Below, in pieces: positions 4,680-25,106 of a stretch of DNA of 26,053 nucleotides. Within the stretch, counting starts at the first letter, position 1, and each line of letters starts with the position of its first letter. The notes under the pieces were generated by a model that saw only the letters and a program-made list of their open reading frames with translations, did not search any database and was not told the DNA's origin. The position numbers and the translations under genes are program-made. Source of the stretch: a virus; the IMG/VR virus record IMGVR_UViG_3300012920_000231, positions 1 to 26,053 of that record; one strand, given 5' to 3'.

Positions 4680-5432
4680 ATGGCAGGAATAGCCGACATA
4701 CAAAACAGATATGAGAGTTATCAAAAGAATAGAAACTCTGTATCAAACAATAGCTTAGGCAGGGAACTGTTCTTGAAACAAGATGGTGACCAAGCCTTCA
4801 TAAAATCAATAGCAACAGGAACACCTGAAGACCCTTATCTAGCAGAGATTAGATTACATACTTTCAGAGAAGATGGAAGATGGCAGTCTGTTCTACATAC
4901 TGAAGAAGGACCTGCAGATGAAGTTCCAGAAGGAAGTGTACCTTCAAGAAAGTTTGCTTTATGGGCATATGTATCAGAGGTAGTACACCCTGAGAAACCA
5001 AACTTAGGACTCGCAGGAGACTTAGATTGGGAAGAACGCACATTACCATCAGGTAAAGTAGTGTTCGTAGAGCCTATAAATGATTTTAGAATTATTACTC
5101 TAAGCTTCGGAAGAGGCAGATACCTATGGAATGAACTTGTCGACATATATAATGATTGGCAAGGACTAGATAAAGGTGTCCTTAGAATAAAAAGAAATGG
5201 TTTGAGTACTGATACTACTTATACCATTACAACTGTTTCTGATAAGAGTATTGAGATACCAGAAGATAGAATTAAGGAGACATCTGAATTGACTCCTCTT
5301 GATGAATATTTTGCCAATAGATATGGTAAAAAATTCGTACCATCTTCTAACAACAATACACCTATGGAAACACCTAAAGACGCAGTATCTACAATGTCTG
5401 ATGATTCAGATGATGTAGAGATGCCTTTTTAG
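4680..5432 (+). CDS. Probable single-stranded DNA-binding protein with acidic -PF tail
   Basis: 250 residues with AAGGAG six bases before the ATG. The most telling feature is the C-terminus: a low-complexity, Ser/Asn-rich linker ending in DDSDDVEMPF. This is the acidic tail closing in Pro-Phe that bacterial and phage SSBs use to recruit partners. The body (residues about 30-210) is beta-rich with many aromatic residues, compatible with an OB fold, but I cannot match it to a named SSB family by eye. Its place between primase and polymerase supports the call. It should coat ssDNA at the fork and contact primase, polymerase and recombinase. The alternative is a different replication accessory protein that copies the SSB tail. 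Confidence 0.7.
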   Translation: MAGIADIQNRYESYQKNRNSVSNNSLGRELFLKQDGDQAFIKSIATGTPEDPYLAEIRLHTFREDGRWQSVLHTEEGPADEVPEGSVPSRKFALWAYVSEVVHPEKPNLGLAGDLDWEERTLPSGKVVFVEPINDFRIITLSFGRGRYLWNELVDIYNDWQGLDKGVLRIKRNGLSTDTTYTITTVSDKSIEIPEDRIKETSELTPLDEYFANRYGKKFVPSSNNNTPMETPKDAVSTMSDDSDDVEMPF

Positions 5433-5449
5433 TAACCTCCTCTCAATTT

Positions 5450-5479
5450 CCTCCCCAAGTTTGACTCATCTTGGGGAGG
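5450..5479 (+). promoter_or_regulatory. Hairpin that buries the DNA polymerase ribosome-binding site
   Basis: A perfect 10-bp inverted repeat, CCTCCCCAAG (5450-5459) and CTTGGGGAGG (5470-5479), flanks a 10-base loop. The 3' arm contains the GGGGAGGA Shine-Dalgarno of the polymerase gene, whose ATG is at 5490. In the folded mRNA the ribosome site would be fully paired. No T-run follows, so it is not a Rho-independent terminator. A further ACCTCCT at 5435-5441 resembles the 16S anti-Shine-Dalgarno. The structure suggests translational control of polymerase synthesis. What opens it is not visible. Confidence 0.75.
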
Positions 5480-5489
5480 ATGAATAATT

Positions 5490-7496
5490 ATGAACTCATT
5501 AATAGTAAATACAGATAATTTTAAAGATACACTTAGTTCACTTAAGAATGACTACAGTGCTGTGAATACTTGGATAATAGACGTAGAAACTAATGGTTTA
5601 GATGTTTATAATCCTGATATTAAATTATGTGGTATAGGACTTACCCCTGTAACGAATCATGAAATATTAGATGTTGCACCTATTTATTACTTTCCTGTAA
5701 GACACGAGGAAGGGAACAATTTAGAAATGTCTGACGTAAATGATTTGATACAGTTTCTAAATGATACATGTCATATACTTATTGGATACAATATTAAATT
5801 TGATGCTAAGTTTTTAGAAAAACAAGGGATGGATATATCTAATATGCAGATGATTGATGTGTTGGTTATGGTTAGAATGACAGAGGCTACTACGGTAAAT
5901 AAATTAAGTCTATTAGATATAACTATAAAAGACTATGGAGAAGTTGCTGGTCAGTATGATTTAGATACAGACAAAATTCTAAAGTCAAACCGAACTGATG
6001 GAGTGAGATGGAAAGATAATTACTCATTAGCCCCTGTTGATGTATTAGGTCCATATTGTATAGAAGATGTTAAATGCACTAAAAGACTATACGTTGATAG
6101 ATTATCTAAGATAAAACAAGCAGGTATGACTGACTTACTAAAGTTACAATGTAAATTAAGTAAGGCTTTATATGATATGGAAAGTAGGGGCGTTGCTATA
6201 GATAATAAATATGCTCAAACCGCCAATAAAAGAATCCTTACAAGATTAAATAAGTTAGAGCATCGTATATACGATTTAGCCAAAAATGAATTAGGTTTTG
6301 ATAAAATAGACTTTAAATTTAATATTAGTAGTCCATCTCAGATAGGTGAGATATTTAATAAAATGAATATACATTCTCCTGTTCAGACTAGCACAGGAGC
6401 TGAGGCATGGAATGAGGCAGTCTTAGTTCAAGTTAATCACCCACTTGCAGGATTGATAAGACAATATAGAACACTCAATAAATTTAACTCTACTTACATA
6501 GAGCCTTATTTAGAGATGCCCGTATTACATACAGGATTTAAAAACTGGGGTACTGTCACGGGTAGGTTATCATCTAGTAACCCTAATTTACAGAACATAC
6601 CTAGAGACACGATATACATTGCAGACAGAGAACTTGATGAAGAACAACGTGATGAAGTTAAGGGTAGGATATCTGCTTTGATATCTAGCAAAGGTGGCGA
6701 TTCTACAGTAACACTTACAGATGATGTCATAGATACATGGAGTTTTTTAGGTGGTGATAAGTTTGATGTCAAAGATAAAACACAGATTGCTATCCGACAT
6801 CTATTCGTACCTCGTAAGGATTACACGCTTATGGCGTATGATTACTCACAGATGGAAGTTAGAGTGTTCATGTATTATGTTGATAACGCTGAAATGAATG
6901 AACTCATGAAACAAGATGATGTAGACTTTCATGGAGAAGCAGCTAAGATAGCTTTTAATATGGATGAGGATAACCCTGAATTTAAGTTCTATAGACAATT
7001 AGCTAAGTCAATTACTTTTGGAGTTATATATGGTATTGGTAAAGATAAGCTGGCAATGCAATTAAATACAAGTGCTAATGAAGCTTTCAGATATAAAAAG
7101 ACATATTTAGAAAACATGAAAGGGTCAAAAGAATTTTTTAACTCTGTGGTTAAGACTATTGAAACTAAGGGCTGGGTTAGAAATAAGTATGGAAGAATAT
7201 ACAAAGTTCCAAAAGATTATGCATATAGAGGTGTAAATTACTTGATTCAGGGCACAAGTGCTGATATTATGAGTGAAAGAATAGTAGAAATACACGATTA
7301 CCTAAAAGATAAGAAGAGTAATCTACTACTTCAAGTGCACGATGAAGTTATATGTGAGATACATAAGTCGGAGTTGGATGAAGTAGCACCTAAAATTAAA
7401 GAACTAATGAAAGAAAACACATTGAATATCCCACTTGGTGTAGATATGGAAGTATGTAAGCCATCGTGGGCAGTGAAGGAAGATTATAAATTATGA
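5490..7496 (+). CDS. polA: Family A DNA polymerase with 3'-5' exonuclease
   Basis: 668 residues. The proofreading exonuclease comes first: Exo I DVETNGLD (D31, E33), Exo II GYNIKFDAKF (D105), Exo III Y189-x3-D193. There is no 5'-3' flap nuclease domain. The polymerase domain has TGRLSSSNPNLQNIP (357-371), motif A DYSQMEVRV (D451), motif B with R502, K506, F510 and Y514, and motif C VHDEV (H617, D618, E619). The residue equivalent to E. coli Pol I Phe762 is Phe510. About 63 residues (372-434) separate QNIP from IRHLF, where E. coli Pol I has about eight, so there is an extra segment next to the active site. The gene is preceded by a ribosome-site-burying hairpin and its stop overlaps the bS21 start (ATGA). 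It is the replicative polymerase of the phage. Confidence 0.96.
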   Translation: MNSLIVNTDNFKDTLSSLKNDYSAVNTWIIDVETNGLDVYNPDIKLCGIGLTPVTNHEILDVAPIYYFPVRHEEGNNLEMSDVNDLIQFLNDTCHILIGYNIKFDAKFLEKQGMDISNMQMIDVLVMVRMTEATTVNKLSLLDITIKDYGEVAGQYDLDTDKILKSNRTDGVRWKDNYSLAPVDVLGPYCIEDVKCTKRLYVDRLSKIKQAGMTDLLKLQCKLSKALYDMESRGVAIDNKYAQTANKRILTRLNKLEHRIYDLAKNELGFDKIDFKFNISSPSQIGEIFNKMNIHSPVQTSTGAEAWNEAVLVQVNHPLAGLIRQYRTLNKFNSTYIEPYLEMPVLHTGFKNWGTVTGRLSSSNPNLQNIPRDTIYIADRELDEEQRDEVKGRISALISSKGGDSTVTLTDDVIDTWSFLGGDKFDVKDKTQIAIRHLFVPRKDYTLMAYDYSQMEVRVFMYYVDNAEMNELMKQDDVDFHGEAAKIAFNMDEDNPEFKFYRQLAKSITFGVIYGIGKDKLAMQLNTSANEAFRYKKTYLENMKGSKEFFNSVVKTIETKGWVRNKYGRIYKVPKDYAYRGVNYLIQGTSADIMSERIVEIHDYLKDKKSNLLLQVHDEVICEIHKSELDEVAPKIKELMKENTLNIPLGVDMEVCKPSWAVKEDYKL

Positions 7497-7678
7497 AAGT
7501 AACAGCAAAGAAAAACGAAACTTTTGAAAAATTATTACGAAGGTTTAAAAAGTCTATTGAAAAAGATGATATAATTAAGACATATAGAAAAAAGTCAGAG
7601 TTTACACCGAAAAGTGTAGAAAGACAACAGAAAATTAAAGACAAGTTACGAAAGAGTAGAGAAAATGGCAAAGGCTAA
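7493..7678 (+). CDS. rpsU: Ribosomal protein bS21 (phage-encoded)
   Basis: 61 residues and very basic. The sequence follows bS21 throughout: KNETFEKLLRRFKKSIEK (7-24) matches the conserved NExxxxALRRFKRxxEK helix. The next part, with YRKKSEFTPKSVER around 31-44, matches the RRRExYEKPSxxR segment, and a basic helix ends the protein. It lacks a long Arg-rich tail but is near normal length. bS21 sits on the 30S platform near the 16S 3' end and helps mRNA binding at initiation. Genes for bS21 are known in many, largely aquatic, phages. The start overlaps the polymerase stop by four bases (ATGA), with AAGGA at 7476-7480. It may replace host bS21 in ribosomes and favour phage mRNAs. That effect is inference. 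Confidence 0.88.
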   Translation: MKVTAKKNETFEKLLRRFKKSIEKDDIIKTYRKKSEFTPKSVERQQKIKDKLRKSRENGKG

Positions 7679-7988
7679 AAAGAAAACATTAAAAGATAAA
7701 TTAGATATATATTTACAAGCTTTTGAGGAAGAAGTTATGCTCTATGATGAGTACGAAGATGCCTTTGTAGGATTAGGATATCAACAATACAAAGGTCCAA
7801 TTGCTATATACGATGCAAGAAAGTGTGTAGAAATACTAACTGACAATTTTATGGATGACCCTGACTGCGAAAGTAGAGAAGCAGCTGAAGAAATGGCGAT
7901 AGAATGGTTTGACTATAACTCTGTTGGAGCATGGTATGGAGAAAAAACACCAATATTTATATCAACTACATTGGAGGATTTAGAATAA
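7665..7988 (+). CDS. Conserved phage protein of unknown function
   Basis: 107 residues, starting 14 bases inside the bS21 gene. It begins with a short Lys-rich stretch and is acidic afterwards. The central YDARKCVEILTDNF, followed by an EEMAIEWFDYNSVGAWYGEKTPIF segment, looks like a family I associate with marine phages (tyrosine-aspartate, KC-x-EIL, then EWF-x2-N and GEKTP). No function is known to me. There is one Cys pair (about residues 54 and 68) but no zinc motif, and no signal peptide or membrane segment. Coupled translation with bS21 and the next gene puts it in the polymerase operon. Its stop overlaps the next start as TAATG. Confidence 0.8.
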   Translation: MAKAKKKTLKDKLDIYLQAFEEEVMLYDEYEDAFVGLGYQQYKGPIAIYDARKCVEILTDNFMDDPDCESREAAEEMAIEWFDYNSVGAWYGEKTPIFISTTLEDLE

Positions 7989-8426: not shown

Positions 8427-8933
8427 ATGAACAACAAAATTAGACACAATGAGATAGACGTGCCTTACAAAGGCAGAATTGCTAAACTATGGTTTGAAGA
8501 GGGTAACTTTGACTCTTATAAAGCTACAGTTTTGGTGCCGGGTAGTAAAAAACCTATAGCACCTTTAGATGAAGGTTACTTTAATTACTTTCAAGAACTA
8601 AGAACAGAAGAAGAGAAAGAACAAATATATCAAGATTTTACAAAGATATACGATGTTACTACTACTGAAGTAGAAACTTCTGTCATTAAACTAATTAATC
8701 AGTTATCAAGCAAATATGATGACTCAGATGATATTAACTTAAGATTTGTTATCGTGTACTATGGCATGGTAGCAGAAGAAAATAAAGAATTTGCAAAATT
8801 AAAAAAACGAATTAAACGTCTAGGTATGTACCAAACTTTGATTGAGGGTATGAAACCTAGAGACGCTGCTAATTTTAGTAAAGGTAAAGATTGGACAGAG
8901 CTAGACGTTATTATGAAAGAAAGAGGATTTTGA
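8427..8933 (+). CDS. Conserved phage protein of unknown function
   Basis: 168 residues, preceded by AAGGAAG. A 46-base gap (8381-8426) separates it from the DUF3310 gene; that gap is AT-rich and I see no convincing promoter in it. The N-terminal part is beta-rich. The C-terminal 60 residues, starting VYYGMVAEENKEFAKL and ending NFSKGKDWTELDVIMKERGF, look like the most conserved portion and resemble a motif I associate with phage proteins of unknown role: an EEN helix, a basic RIKRLG helix, then an ANFSKGK-x-W-x-ELD ending. A nucleic-acid-binding or regulatory role is possible from the basic helix and the position in the replication operon, but nothing fixes it. Confidence 0.75.
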   Translation: MNNKIRHNEIDVPYKGRIAKLWFEEGNFDSYKATVLVPGSKKPIAPLDEGYFNYFQELRTEEEKEQIYQDFTKIYDVTTTEVETSVIKLINQLSSKYDDSDDINLRFVIVYYGMVAEENKEFAKLKKRIKRLGMYQTLIEGMKPRDAANFSKGKDWTELDVIMKERGF

Positions 8934-13172: not shown

Positions 13173-13675
13173 TGCCTAAGAAATTTTCACGCCAAGTAAG
13201 AGACAGAGCATTTAAACTATACTTAGATGATACATATTCTGCACGCGAGATTGCTGAACAAGTATCTCAAGAATTTAGAGTAGCAGTGACTACTCCTACA
13301 ATTTATAGTTGGATAAGAACTTTAGATTGGGATACTAAGAAAAAAGAAACGGAAGCAAAAGCTATGCAGAAAATGCAGGAAGATGAATCAACTAAGATAG
13401 CTAGAATGCAAGAAGAACACCAAGAACTATATAAGACTGTGAGAGACAAAGCTGGTATAGAATTAAATTCATTAACTTTTGAAAGAGCTTTTGATGCAGT
13501 AAAAGCTTTAGACATAGGTATACAAGGAGAAAGACAAGTTGCAGAGGGATTAATTAATGTGCAGTTTATACAAGATGTAGTTAATATCCTAGTAGATGAA
13601 ATAGAAGATGTAGAACTTATTAAACGTATAGCAACTAAATTGAAAGTATTGATGGCATCAAAAGACAATGAGTGA
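13172..13675 (+). CDS. Terminase small subunit
   Basis: 167 residues. The N-terminal ~58 residues are a helix-turn-helix of the kind found in small terminases: RQVRDRAFKLYLDDTYSARE, then IAEQVSQEF and a recognition segment TTPTIYSWIRTLDWDTKKKE. A long charged coiled coil follows (KAMQKMQEDESTKIARMQEE region), which would drive ring formation, and the C-terminal helix may contact TerL. Its stop overlaps the large terminase start by eight bases. It should recognise the packaging site and regulate the motor. The call rests on fold features plus position rather than on a strong family signature. Confidence 0.8.
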   Translation: MPKKFSRQVRDRAFKLYLDDTYSAREIAEQVSQEFRVAVTTPTIYSWIRTLDWDTKKKETEAKAMQKMQEDESTKIARMQEEHQELYKTVRDKAGIELNSLTFERAFDAVKALDIGIQGERQVAEGLINVQFIQDVVNILVDEIEDVELIKRIATKLKVLMASKDNE

Positions 13676-23702: not shown

Positions 23703-25106
23703 ATGCCTTCACTAAGTGAATACATAGCTCAATCGAATAGAGGACTAAACCAGTCTGTATTCGGTCCTGAGTACTTATCCAAAGCGTTTAATGCTGCTAG
23801 CTCAGGCACTGCTGATGCAATCTTTACGACTACATCTGCAGATAACGTCTTTACTTCTACTTTCGGTAGAAAAGTATGGCAGTCATTGAACAACCAAACT
23901 CGTTTTTTCAACGCAATCCCAAGAACAGTTTTCGGTAACACCGTTGGTTGGAGGGTGAGAACAGATAGAGGTAGCCAAAGGTCTCGACCAATAACAGAGA
24001 CTGGTAGCCTACCAGATATCGATGTTTCAAACCTAGAAACAATCTCTAGCTTGCCTAAGATTATTTCTACTTCATTCGGTGCTTCTGTGAAAGCAATGTA
24101 CACTGCCCAATTAGAAGGTGGTGTCGGTGACGTATTAGCGTTGGAAAACGAAAACGCACAACTTGACCACATCAAGGAAATGAACCAAGAACTATTACTA
24201 CCAAACACAGTTTCAAACTCTGGAGATATTGGTGGTTCAACTACAGATGCTAACGTAACAAACGGTGCCGACCTAAGAATCGGTGACCAAGTGATGTTAG
24301 TAGATGCTGGGTCTGCTACAGATAACAACGCAGCTCCTATATCAGCGATATCAGGAAATGATATTACTTTTAGCTCTGCTTTAAGTGGTACTCCAGCAGC
24401 TGGAAACTCTGGGTCAATCGCAGACAACCTTTCAGTTACATCAAGAGCTGGTTTGACATCAATTGATGACATCGTAATGATTAACGGTGTAGCAGCTAGC
24501 GGTAACGCAGGTGTGGCTACTGGTGGTTCAGCTTACGACTTAACTAAGTCAACTAACTCTGGTGGATTCCAAAGAGGCTCAGGTGCATTCAGTGCTGCTG
24601 CTACTGTAAAAGGTAACAGTGGTGTTGGAAGAGACCTGTCTCTAAACCTACTAGATGATTGTATACAAACAATCAGAACTAATGGTGGAGAACCTAAGTT
24701 AATTCTTATGGGTCACGACCAATACTTCAAACTAGAGAGATTACTTAACTCTCAACAGAGATACATGGGACAGGAAGAGTACCAAGTAGGAGTAGGGTCT
24801 GAAAAGACTTTCCCGGGTACAAGAACTGGACTAGTTCTCGCAACTTACCAAGGTATTCCAATTCTACCAGATGCAGACACTACTAAATCAGAGGCTGCTT
24901 CTGATGGTTCAAAACTAGGTTCAAACATCTACGTTTTGGATACAGATTACCTAGAAATCGCTGTAGCTCAACCTACTCAGTATATTGAGAACAGAGATTA
25001 CTTCGCAGCTGACGCACTTGTAGTCAGAGGTTTGCTATACACAATGGCAGAGTTCAGAGCTTACAGGTTTGACGTTCAAGCTAAGATTACAGACTTAAAC
25101 GCGTAG
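23703..25106 (+). CDS. Probable major capsid protein (HK97-fold type)
   Basis: 467 residues with GAGGAG upstream and a spacing of about nine bases. The N-terminal half has a region with FFNAIPRTVFGNTVGWRVRT and SSLPKIISTSFGASVKAMYTAQ, as expected of the N-arm, E-loop and spine helix of HK97-type coats. The C-terminal half has LILMGHDQYFKLERLL, PGTRTGLVLATYQGIPILPD, NIYVLDTDYLEIAVAQPTQY and LLYTMAEFRAYRFDVQAKI. This order (sample-position helix, then a GIPI-type strand, then a final tower strand) is common in phage major capsid proteins. A Ser/Gly/Asn-rich stretch (about 170-300) looks like an inserted domain. Its position after a scaffold, and the C-biased codons (AAC, GAC, ATC), fit the most abundant virion protein. 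The exact fold is inferred. Confidence 0.8.
   Translation: MPSLSEYIAQSNRGLNQSVFGPEYLSKAFNAASSGTADAIFTTTSADNVFTSTFGRKVWQSLNNQTRFFNAIPRTVFGNTVGWRVRTDRGSQRSRPITETGSLPDIDVSNLETISSLPKIISTSFGASVKAMYTAQLEGGVGDVLALENENAQLDHIKEMNQELLLPNTVSNSGDIGGSTTDANVTNGADLRIGDQVMLVDAGSATDNNAAPISAISGNDITFSSALSGTPAAGNSGSIADNLSVTSRAGLTSIDDIVMINGVAASGNAGVATGGSAYDLTKSTNSGGFQRGSGAFSAAATVKGNSGVGRDLSLNLLDDCIQTIRTNGGEPKLILMGHDQYFKLERLLNSQQRYMGQEEYQVGVGSEKTFPGTRTGLVLATYQGIPILPDADTTKSEAASDGSKLGSNIYVLDTDYLEIAVAQPTQYIENRDYFAADALVVRGLLYTMAEFRAYRFDVQAKITDLNA

Follow-up and report, generated by a model that had tools for sequence, protein, structure and literature searches.

bS21 accounts for 88% of the ribosomal proteins found in uncultured viruses (PMC6375957), and phage bS21 is already a known kind of gene whose published context is mainly that of late-expressed structural genes, with some copies near DNA-processing genes (Mizuno 2019, PMC6375957; Chen 2022, PMC9723584). 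The pelagiphage HTVC008M, a 147-kb myovirus, encodes a bS21 that is closest to that of its Pelagibacter host (54% identity) and that enters E. coli 70S ribosomes (PMC6375957). The Bacteroidetes lake phages of Chen et al. 2022 (PMC9723584) encode bS21 on the reverse strand in a group of late structural genes, with which it is co-expressed, and their protein carries an aromatic residue at position 54, the residue that in Bacteroidia keeps the anti-Shine-Dalgarno (anti-SD) sequence away; this best-studied phage bS21 lineage is tied to Bacteroidetes ribosomes that ignore Shine-Dalgarno (SD) sequences. Work in bacteria points to effects on translation, as loss of a bS21 homologue in Francisella alters the proteome without matching transcript changes (PMC9578407) and bS21 loss in Flavobacterium alters mRNA selection (PMC9976891). 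In the latter genus bS21 blocks the anti-SD, and the bS21-containing operon is preceded by a strong, extended SD that belongs to rpsU itself, an autoregulated gene (McNutt et al. 2023, PMC9976891). Finally, the T4/RB69 gp43 operator places a hairpin 5' of a phage DNA polymerase start, involves the ribosome site region, and is proven to mediate autorepression (review PMC3014915).

Like HTVC008M, the phage represented by our window (the whole 26,053-nt stretch of viral DNA analyzed here) encodes a bS21. The gene lies at 7493..7678 on the + strand, and its 61-aa product reads MKVTAKKNETFEKLLRRFKKSIEKDDIIKTYRKKSEFTPKSVERQQKIKDKLRKSRENGKG. The original prediction had named this ORF bS21 from an alignment by eye over almost its whole length, and profile searches bear this out: PF01165 matched at 37.7 bits (curated cutoff, 27) over profile positions 2-54 of 55, and TIGR00030 at 38.6 (curated cutoff, 28.95) over positions 1-55 of 58. 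PHROG 21469, annotated as 'ribosomal protein S21', was matched as well. The two segments singled out by eye, LRRFKKSIEK and S-x-x-R, are present as residues 15-24 and S41-V-E-R44. An AlphaFold model, for which 23 phage family members served as input, has three helices and a mean pLDDT of 81.6, and all 17 of its structure matches in the PDB are ribosome entries (TM by query, 0.57-0.72). The best of them had a probability of 1.00 and an E-value of only 0.03, weak E-values being expected at a length of 61 residues. Designed TPR repeats among the PDB sequence matches were rejected as repeat-score artefacts with no single convincing stretch. The assignment is not a chance match, because viral contigs found from the gene itself share the same gene order and its median dN/dS of 0.15 (162 pairs) indicates purifying selection.

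For comparison with bacteria we used 67 distinct bS21s from a genome scan, a set biased to Bacillota, Beta- and Gammaproteobacteria. Nine residues conserved across these proteins (N8, E9, R16, R17, F18, K19, K24, R32, and R44 in phage numbering) all occur in the window and, with few exceptions, in the 23 family members, where R44 is K in six, K19 is T in two, and N8 is D or G in three. Most conserved basic residues (R16, R17, K19, K24, R32, and R44), the loss of which had been named as grounds for abandoning the bS21 assignment, are thus retained. Other bacterial invariants are replaced across the phage lineage: A14 by L, G26 by D (G in two members), and E30 by T. Relative to the sampled bacteria, positions 39-40 read PK instead of KP and K45 is Q; both K45 and K47 are mostly Q in the phage family, with K47 kept in the window. 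Position 54 is K in 23 of 23 phage sequences and no aromatic residue occurs from position 47 onward. Judged by these alignments, the bS21 described here is a divergent subfamily, new relative to known phage bS21, and lacks the Bacteroidia-type residue that blocks the anti-SD.

The window covers a phage replication and head region with all genes on one strand, in the order sigma-like, DnaB, primase, ssb-like, polA, bS21, small genes, recA-like, nucleases, terL, RNR, portal, and MCP, where DnaB, primase, RecA, and RNR were named from sequence without a family search. bS21 sits between polA and the small replication-region genes; terL begins at 13668 and MCP at 23703, and the gene does not lie among capsid, protease, portal, and terminase genes. 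The ssb-like gene 5' of polA (4680..5432, +) was named by its position and an acidic tail ending MPF, and had no Pfam family match above cutoff. The upstream neighbor of bS21 is a family A DNA polymerase with a 3'-5' exonuclease-like N-terminus (polA, 5490..7496, +; PF00476, E 1.7e-78; phrog_17, E 3e-110), and the next gene (phrog_13182, unknown function, 7665..7988, +) shares its first 14 nt with the end of bS21. Elsewhere in the window, a protein with a sigma-70 region 2 domain (1788-2315; PF04542, E 1.4e-12) is encoded just 5' of the DnaB-like helicase gene. A DUF7004 protein (8427-8933; E 3.4e-48) shows 25-53% identity between near-identical relatives whose polA is 95-99% identical, making this gene a possible hot spot of variation. 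The only phage records matched by the MCP (23703-25106), at about 25-30% identity over 38%, are those of haloarchaeal viruses plus a single Methanofastidiosa virus, which is odd for a phage carrying a bacterial ribosomal protein.

At least 66 viral contigs carry this bS21 (52 from a search with the gene itself, and more with second and third queries), and the gene order around it is kept wherever it is visible. In a tree of 97 polA proteins the carriers form two groups: clade A, with 35 rows including the window, and clade B, with 12 carriers plus L163 and L164, two contigs that end too soon after polA to tell whether bS21 is present and so are unusable as examples of loss. The other rows have no bS21 behind polA. 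Exactly one PF01165 match was found in each of 10 carriers searched, and none in the complete records of 12 non-carrier relatives, two of them 82-85 kb long. Between clades A and B, bS21 proteins share about 62-66% identity and the gene has the same location, which suits a single gain behind polA followed by one loss in a small group next to clade B, a group whose placement there has 80% support only. Cultured relatives were sought in phage records, where MCP, TerL, and DUF7004 had no near match and polA matches fell below 30%.

The original prediction also held that bS21 overlaps the polymerase stop, and this is so: the sequence ATGA (7493..7496, +) contains both the polA stop and the bS21 start. 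A weak SD-like stretch, AAGGAAG (7476..7482, +; duplex -5.7 kcal/mol), lies 10 nt 5' of the ATG. The overlap alone proves little because overlaps are common in this compact window with its genes on one strand (19 of 36 junctions, by our own gene picks from the ORF list); what stands out is conservation of the junction. Contigs that include polA show 45 distinct polA/bS21 junctions, of which 42 fall at -4, -1, 0, or +1 nt, with polA identity down to 50%, and the remaining three have an ORF inserted between the genes. Such conservation is the pattern of termination-reinitiation, and translational coupling is the mode of expression that we infer from it. The unrelated ORFs inserted exactly between polA and bS21 (L028:5435-6000 and the same in L029, L158:6961-7520, and L157:3992-4300) look nuclease-like or winged-helix-like by eye, and each has at its end a copy of the HIDWx tail found at the polA C-terminus, which preserves the sequence just 5' of bS21. 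A YIDW-like tail of this kind, which may be an interaction peptide, is common to most relatives and to the inserted ORFs and is missing in clade A1 (window 7460-7496). Because it is common in relatives that lack bS21, we discarded it as a bS21-linked leader.

The interval from the ssb stop (5432) to polA (5490) contains an 11-bp stem whose 5' arm, TCCTCCCCAAG (5449..5459, +), pairs with its 3' arm, CTTGGGGAGGA (5470..5480, +). As the original prediction had proposed, the polymerase ribosome site is hidden in this hairpin: the SD GGGGAGGA (5473-5480, +; duplex -11.4 kcal/mol) is within the 3' arm and ends nine bases before the polA ATG, and compensatory changes occur in relatives. In clade A1 (nine distinct sequences), 98.0% of stem cells are paired, against 42-65% when the partner is slid by 1-3 columns, and there are 11 double-sided changes in four pairs. 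Clade A2 (17 distinct rows) has a 13-bp stem in the same place, with 93.7% paired versus 38-53% when slid and 50 double-sided changes over 10 of its 13 pairs; a model built from A2 places the window element at the homologous site, weakly (E 0.27). After the ssb stop, an anti-SD-like stretch, AACCTCCTCTCAAT (5434..5447, +), is identical in all nine distinct A1 sequences, and its ACCTCC, 5' of the stem, is invariant in both A1 and A2. The A1 element is a true leader, since the polA reading frame is open only from beyond the ssb stop and has no start 5' of the annotated ATG; in A2 all sequences keep the leader in the polA frame (57, 60, or 63 nt), where it may be translated. An intrinsic terminator was ruled out, as no T run follows the stem, and the polA leader matched no Rfam family. 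Relatives without bS21 have, near polA and mostly in the leader, a conserved stretch of about 100 nt, AGACARGRTACG ... AAGSCTTGCT ... CCTGAAAGCC (L178:1180, L184:4903, L195:4901, L219:4234, L177:4801, and L170:6914; the L180 leader equals that of L178, and that of L209 is similar). Five of these loci had no Rfam match at E up to 1, and the stretch may be an undescribed structured RNA.

The interpretation toward which we lean, with modest confidence, is that a bS21 made from the replication operon by coupling to polA swaps into the host 30S subunit and shifts initiation to phage mRNAs. The divergent bS21 would be part of an operon of ssb, hairpin, polA, and bS21 in which polA translation would begin at the SD held in the hairpin. 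Ribosomes finishing polA would then restart at the overlapping ATG to translate bS21, which on such reinitiation would be made when the polymerase is made and at most in roughly the same amount. The new protein could exchange into host 30S subunits beside the 16S rRNA 3' end and bias initiation toward phage mRNAs during the replication phase. This interpretation builds on the protein family and fold, the gene order, the conserved stop/start overlap, the covarying hairpin, and purifying selection. Retention of the shared bacterial residues together with lineage-wide replacement of several invariants counts in its favor, as do the published entry of HTVC008M bS21 into E. coli ribosomes and the effects of bS21 loss in Francisella and Flavobacterium. 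Against it, coupling to polA may give too little protein for most ribosomes, SD strength is unchanged with bS21, and overlapping genes are common in the genome.

Phage starts pair with the anti-SD at -4 kcal/mol or better in 76% of cases, versus 23% of internal ATGs. A shift in SD use in bS21-carrying phages was sought among orthologous genes of relatives and none was seen: orthologous starts have about the same strength with bS21 (mean -6.9 kcal/mol) as without it (-7.2 kcal/mol), and the genomes thus hold no sign of phage mRNAs adapting to a swapped bS21. A changed choice of mRNA through the phage bS21, as originally suggested, is possible. Unshifted SD use suits the main rival, in which the phage protein tops up, or keeps functional, a labile and exchangeable ribosomal protein during host shutdown so that general translation continues. 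Mizuno et al. (PMC6375957) argued that viruses pick exchangeable ribosomal proteins, and the core residues of bacterial bS21 are kept here; however, replacement across the lineage of residues that do not vary among the sampled bacteria points beyond a mere copy, and coupling to polA limits the amount of bS21 available for such a role. We regard simple supply as possible and appreciably less probable.

A functional link between hairpin and bS21, which the original prediction had raised, found no support. In clade B carriers ssb and polA are joined directly as TAAATG with no leader between them, unrelated hairpins often occupy the ssb-polA leader of non-carriers (L173, L187, L208, L212, L218, and L221), and SD strength is alike in both; the first two observations rule out the hairpin as a necessary partner of bS21. 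The hairpin is best read as a control of polA, one that bS21 would inherit via coupling. The first two observations also weigh against the proposal that bS21 acts off the ribosome, binding RNA as a small regulator of the operon that encodes it (e.g., at the ssb-polA leader) or serving as a polymerase partner. Its constant position behind polA in the carrier lineage and the conservation of an anti-SD-like ACCUCC in both the A1 and A2 leaders would fit such a role, and bS21 is reported to have an extraribosomal function in the OLE complex (PMC12054373). Nevertheless, clade B keeps bS21 without the leader, many relatives have polA without bS21, and non-carriers have unrelated hairpins in the same place, so we consider an extraribosomal role improbable. 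We give very little credence to a combined scheme in which the hairpin and ACCUCC would sense ribosome state, the polA start and coupled bS21 depending on whether ribosomes carry host, phage, or no bS21, with feedback tying replication to ribosome takeover. That bS21 is a passenger without specific benefit, picked up into a slot behind polA that is variable in relatives lacking it and that received foreign ORFs in L028, L029, L157, and L158, is most improbable given that neutrality is hard to square with the low dN/dS and with the gene's retention throughout both carrier clades.

A Bacteroidia-type host seems unlikely because position 54 is K and the phage genes use SD sequences. A genome scan with the phage alignment found no host by bS21 similarity, and a broader scan gave only distant bS21s among the matches listed, the best at 43% identity over 46 residues. 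Among 399 Pseudomonadota genomes the best bS21 score was 35.8 bits, versus about 90-127 bits among phage members. The source metagenomes of these contigs are, from their IMG identifiers, presumably marine, and the phage is probably an uncultured marine one.

Set beside the described systems, what is new here is the divergent subfamily, its placement in a replication rather than a late module, and the lack of the Bacteroidia anti-SD-blocking residue. The main texts of PMC6375957 and PMC9723584 make no mention of bS21 adjoining a polymerase gene, although the detections tallied there may include the present contigs, and neither main text describes a bS21 that follows a conserved RNA hairpin in a replication module. 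HTVC008M is set apart, by its description, from the present family, for which the searched samples contained no close bacterial bS21 and whose gene follows a family A polA. The Bacteroidetes lake phages likewise conserve bS21 within a phage lineage with lineage-specific substitutions (PMC9723584), but here the gene shares its strand with the replication genes and its product has K at position 54. As at gp43 of T4, a conserved structured element covers the polymerase ribosome site in clade A1 (a covarying stem with the SD in its 3' arm), with the A2 stem lying in an open frame; the polymerase family differs, being family A here, and any comparable autorepression is putative. Flavobacterium shares a strong SD ahead of the bS21-containing operon, whereas in the window it is polA that has this SD, and SD use extends across the phage's genes. 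The hairpin 5' of polA offers an RNA element that can be put to the test and is absent from Rfam, and the divergent bS21 residues are direct targets for a ribosome assay. A bS21 in the replication operon of SD-using phages calls for different timing and a different effect on initiation from those of the Bacteroidetes lineage and, if our interpretation is true, would give phages a second means, separable from the first, of altering host ribosomes.
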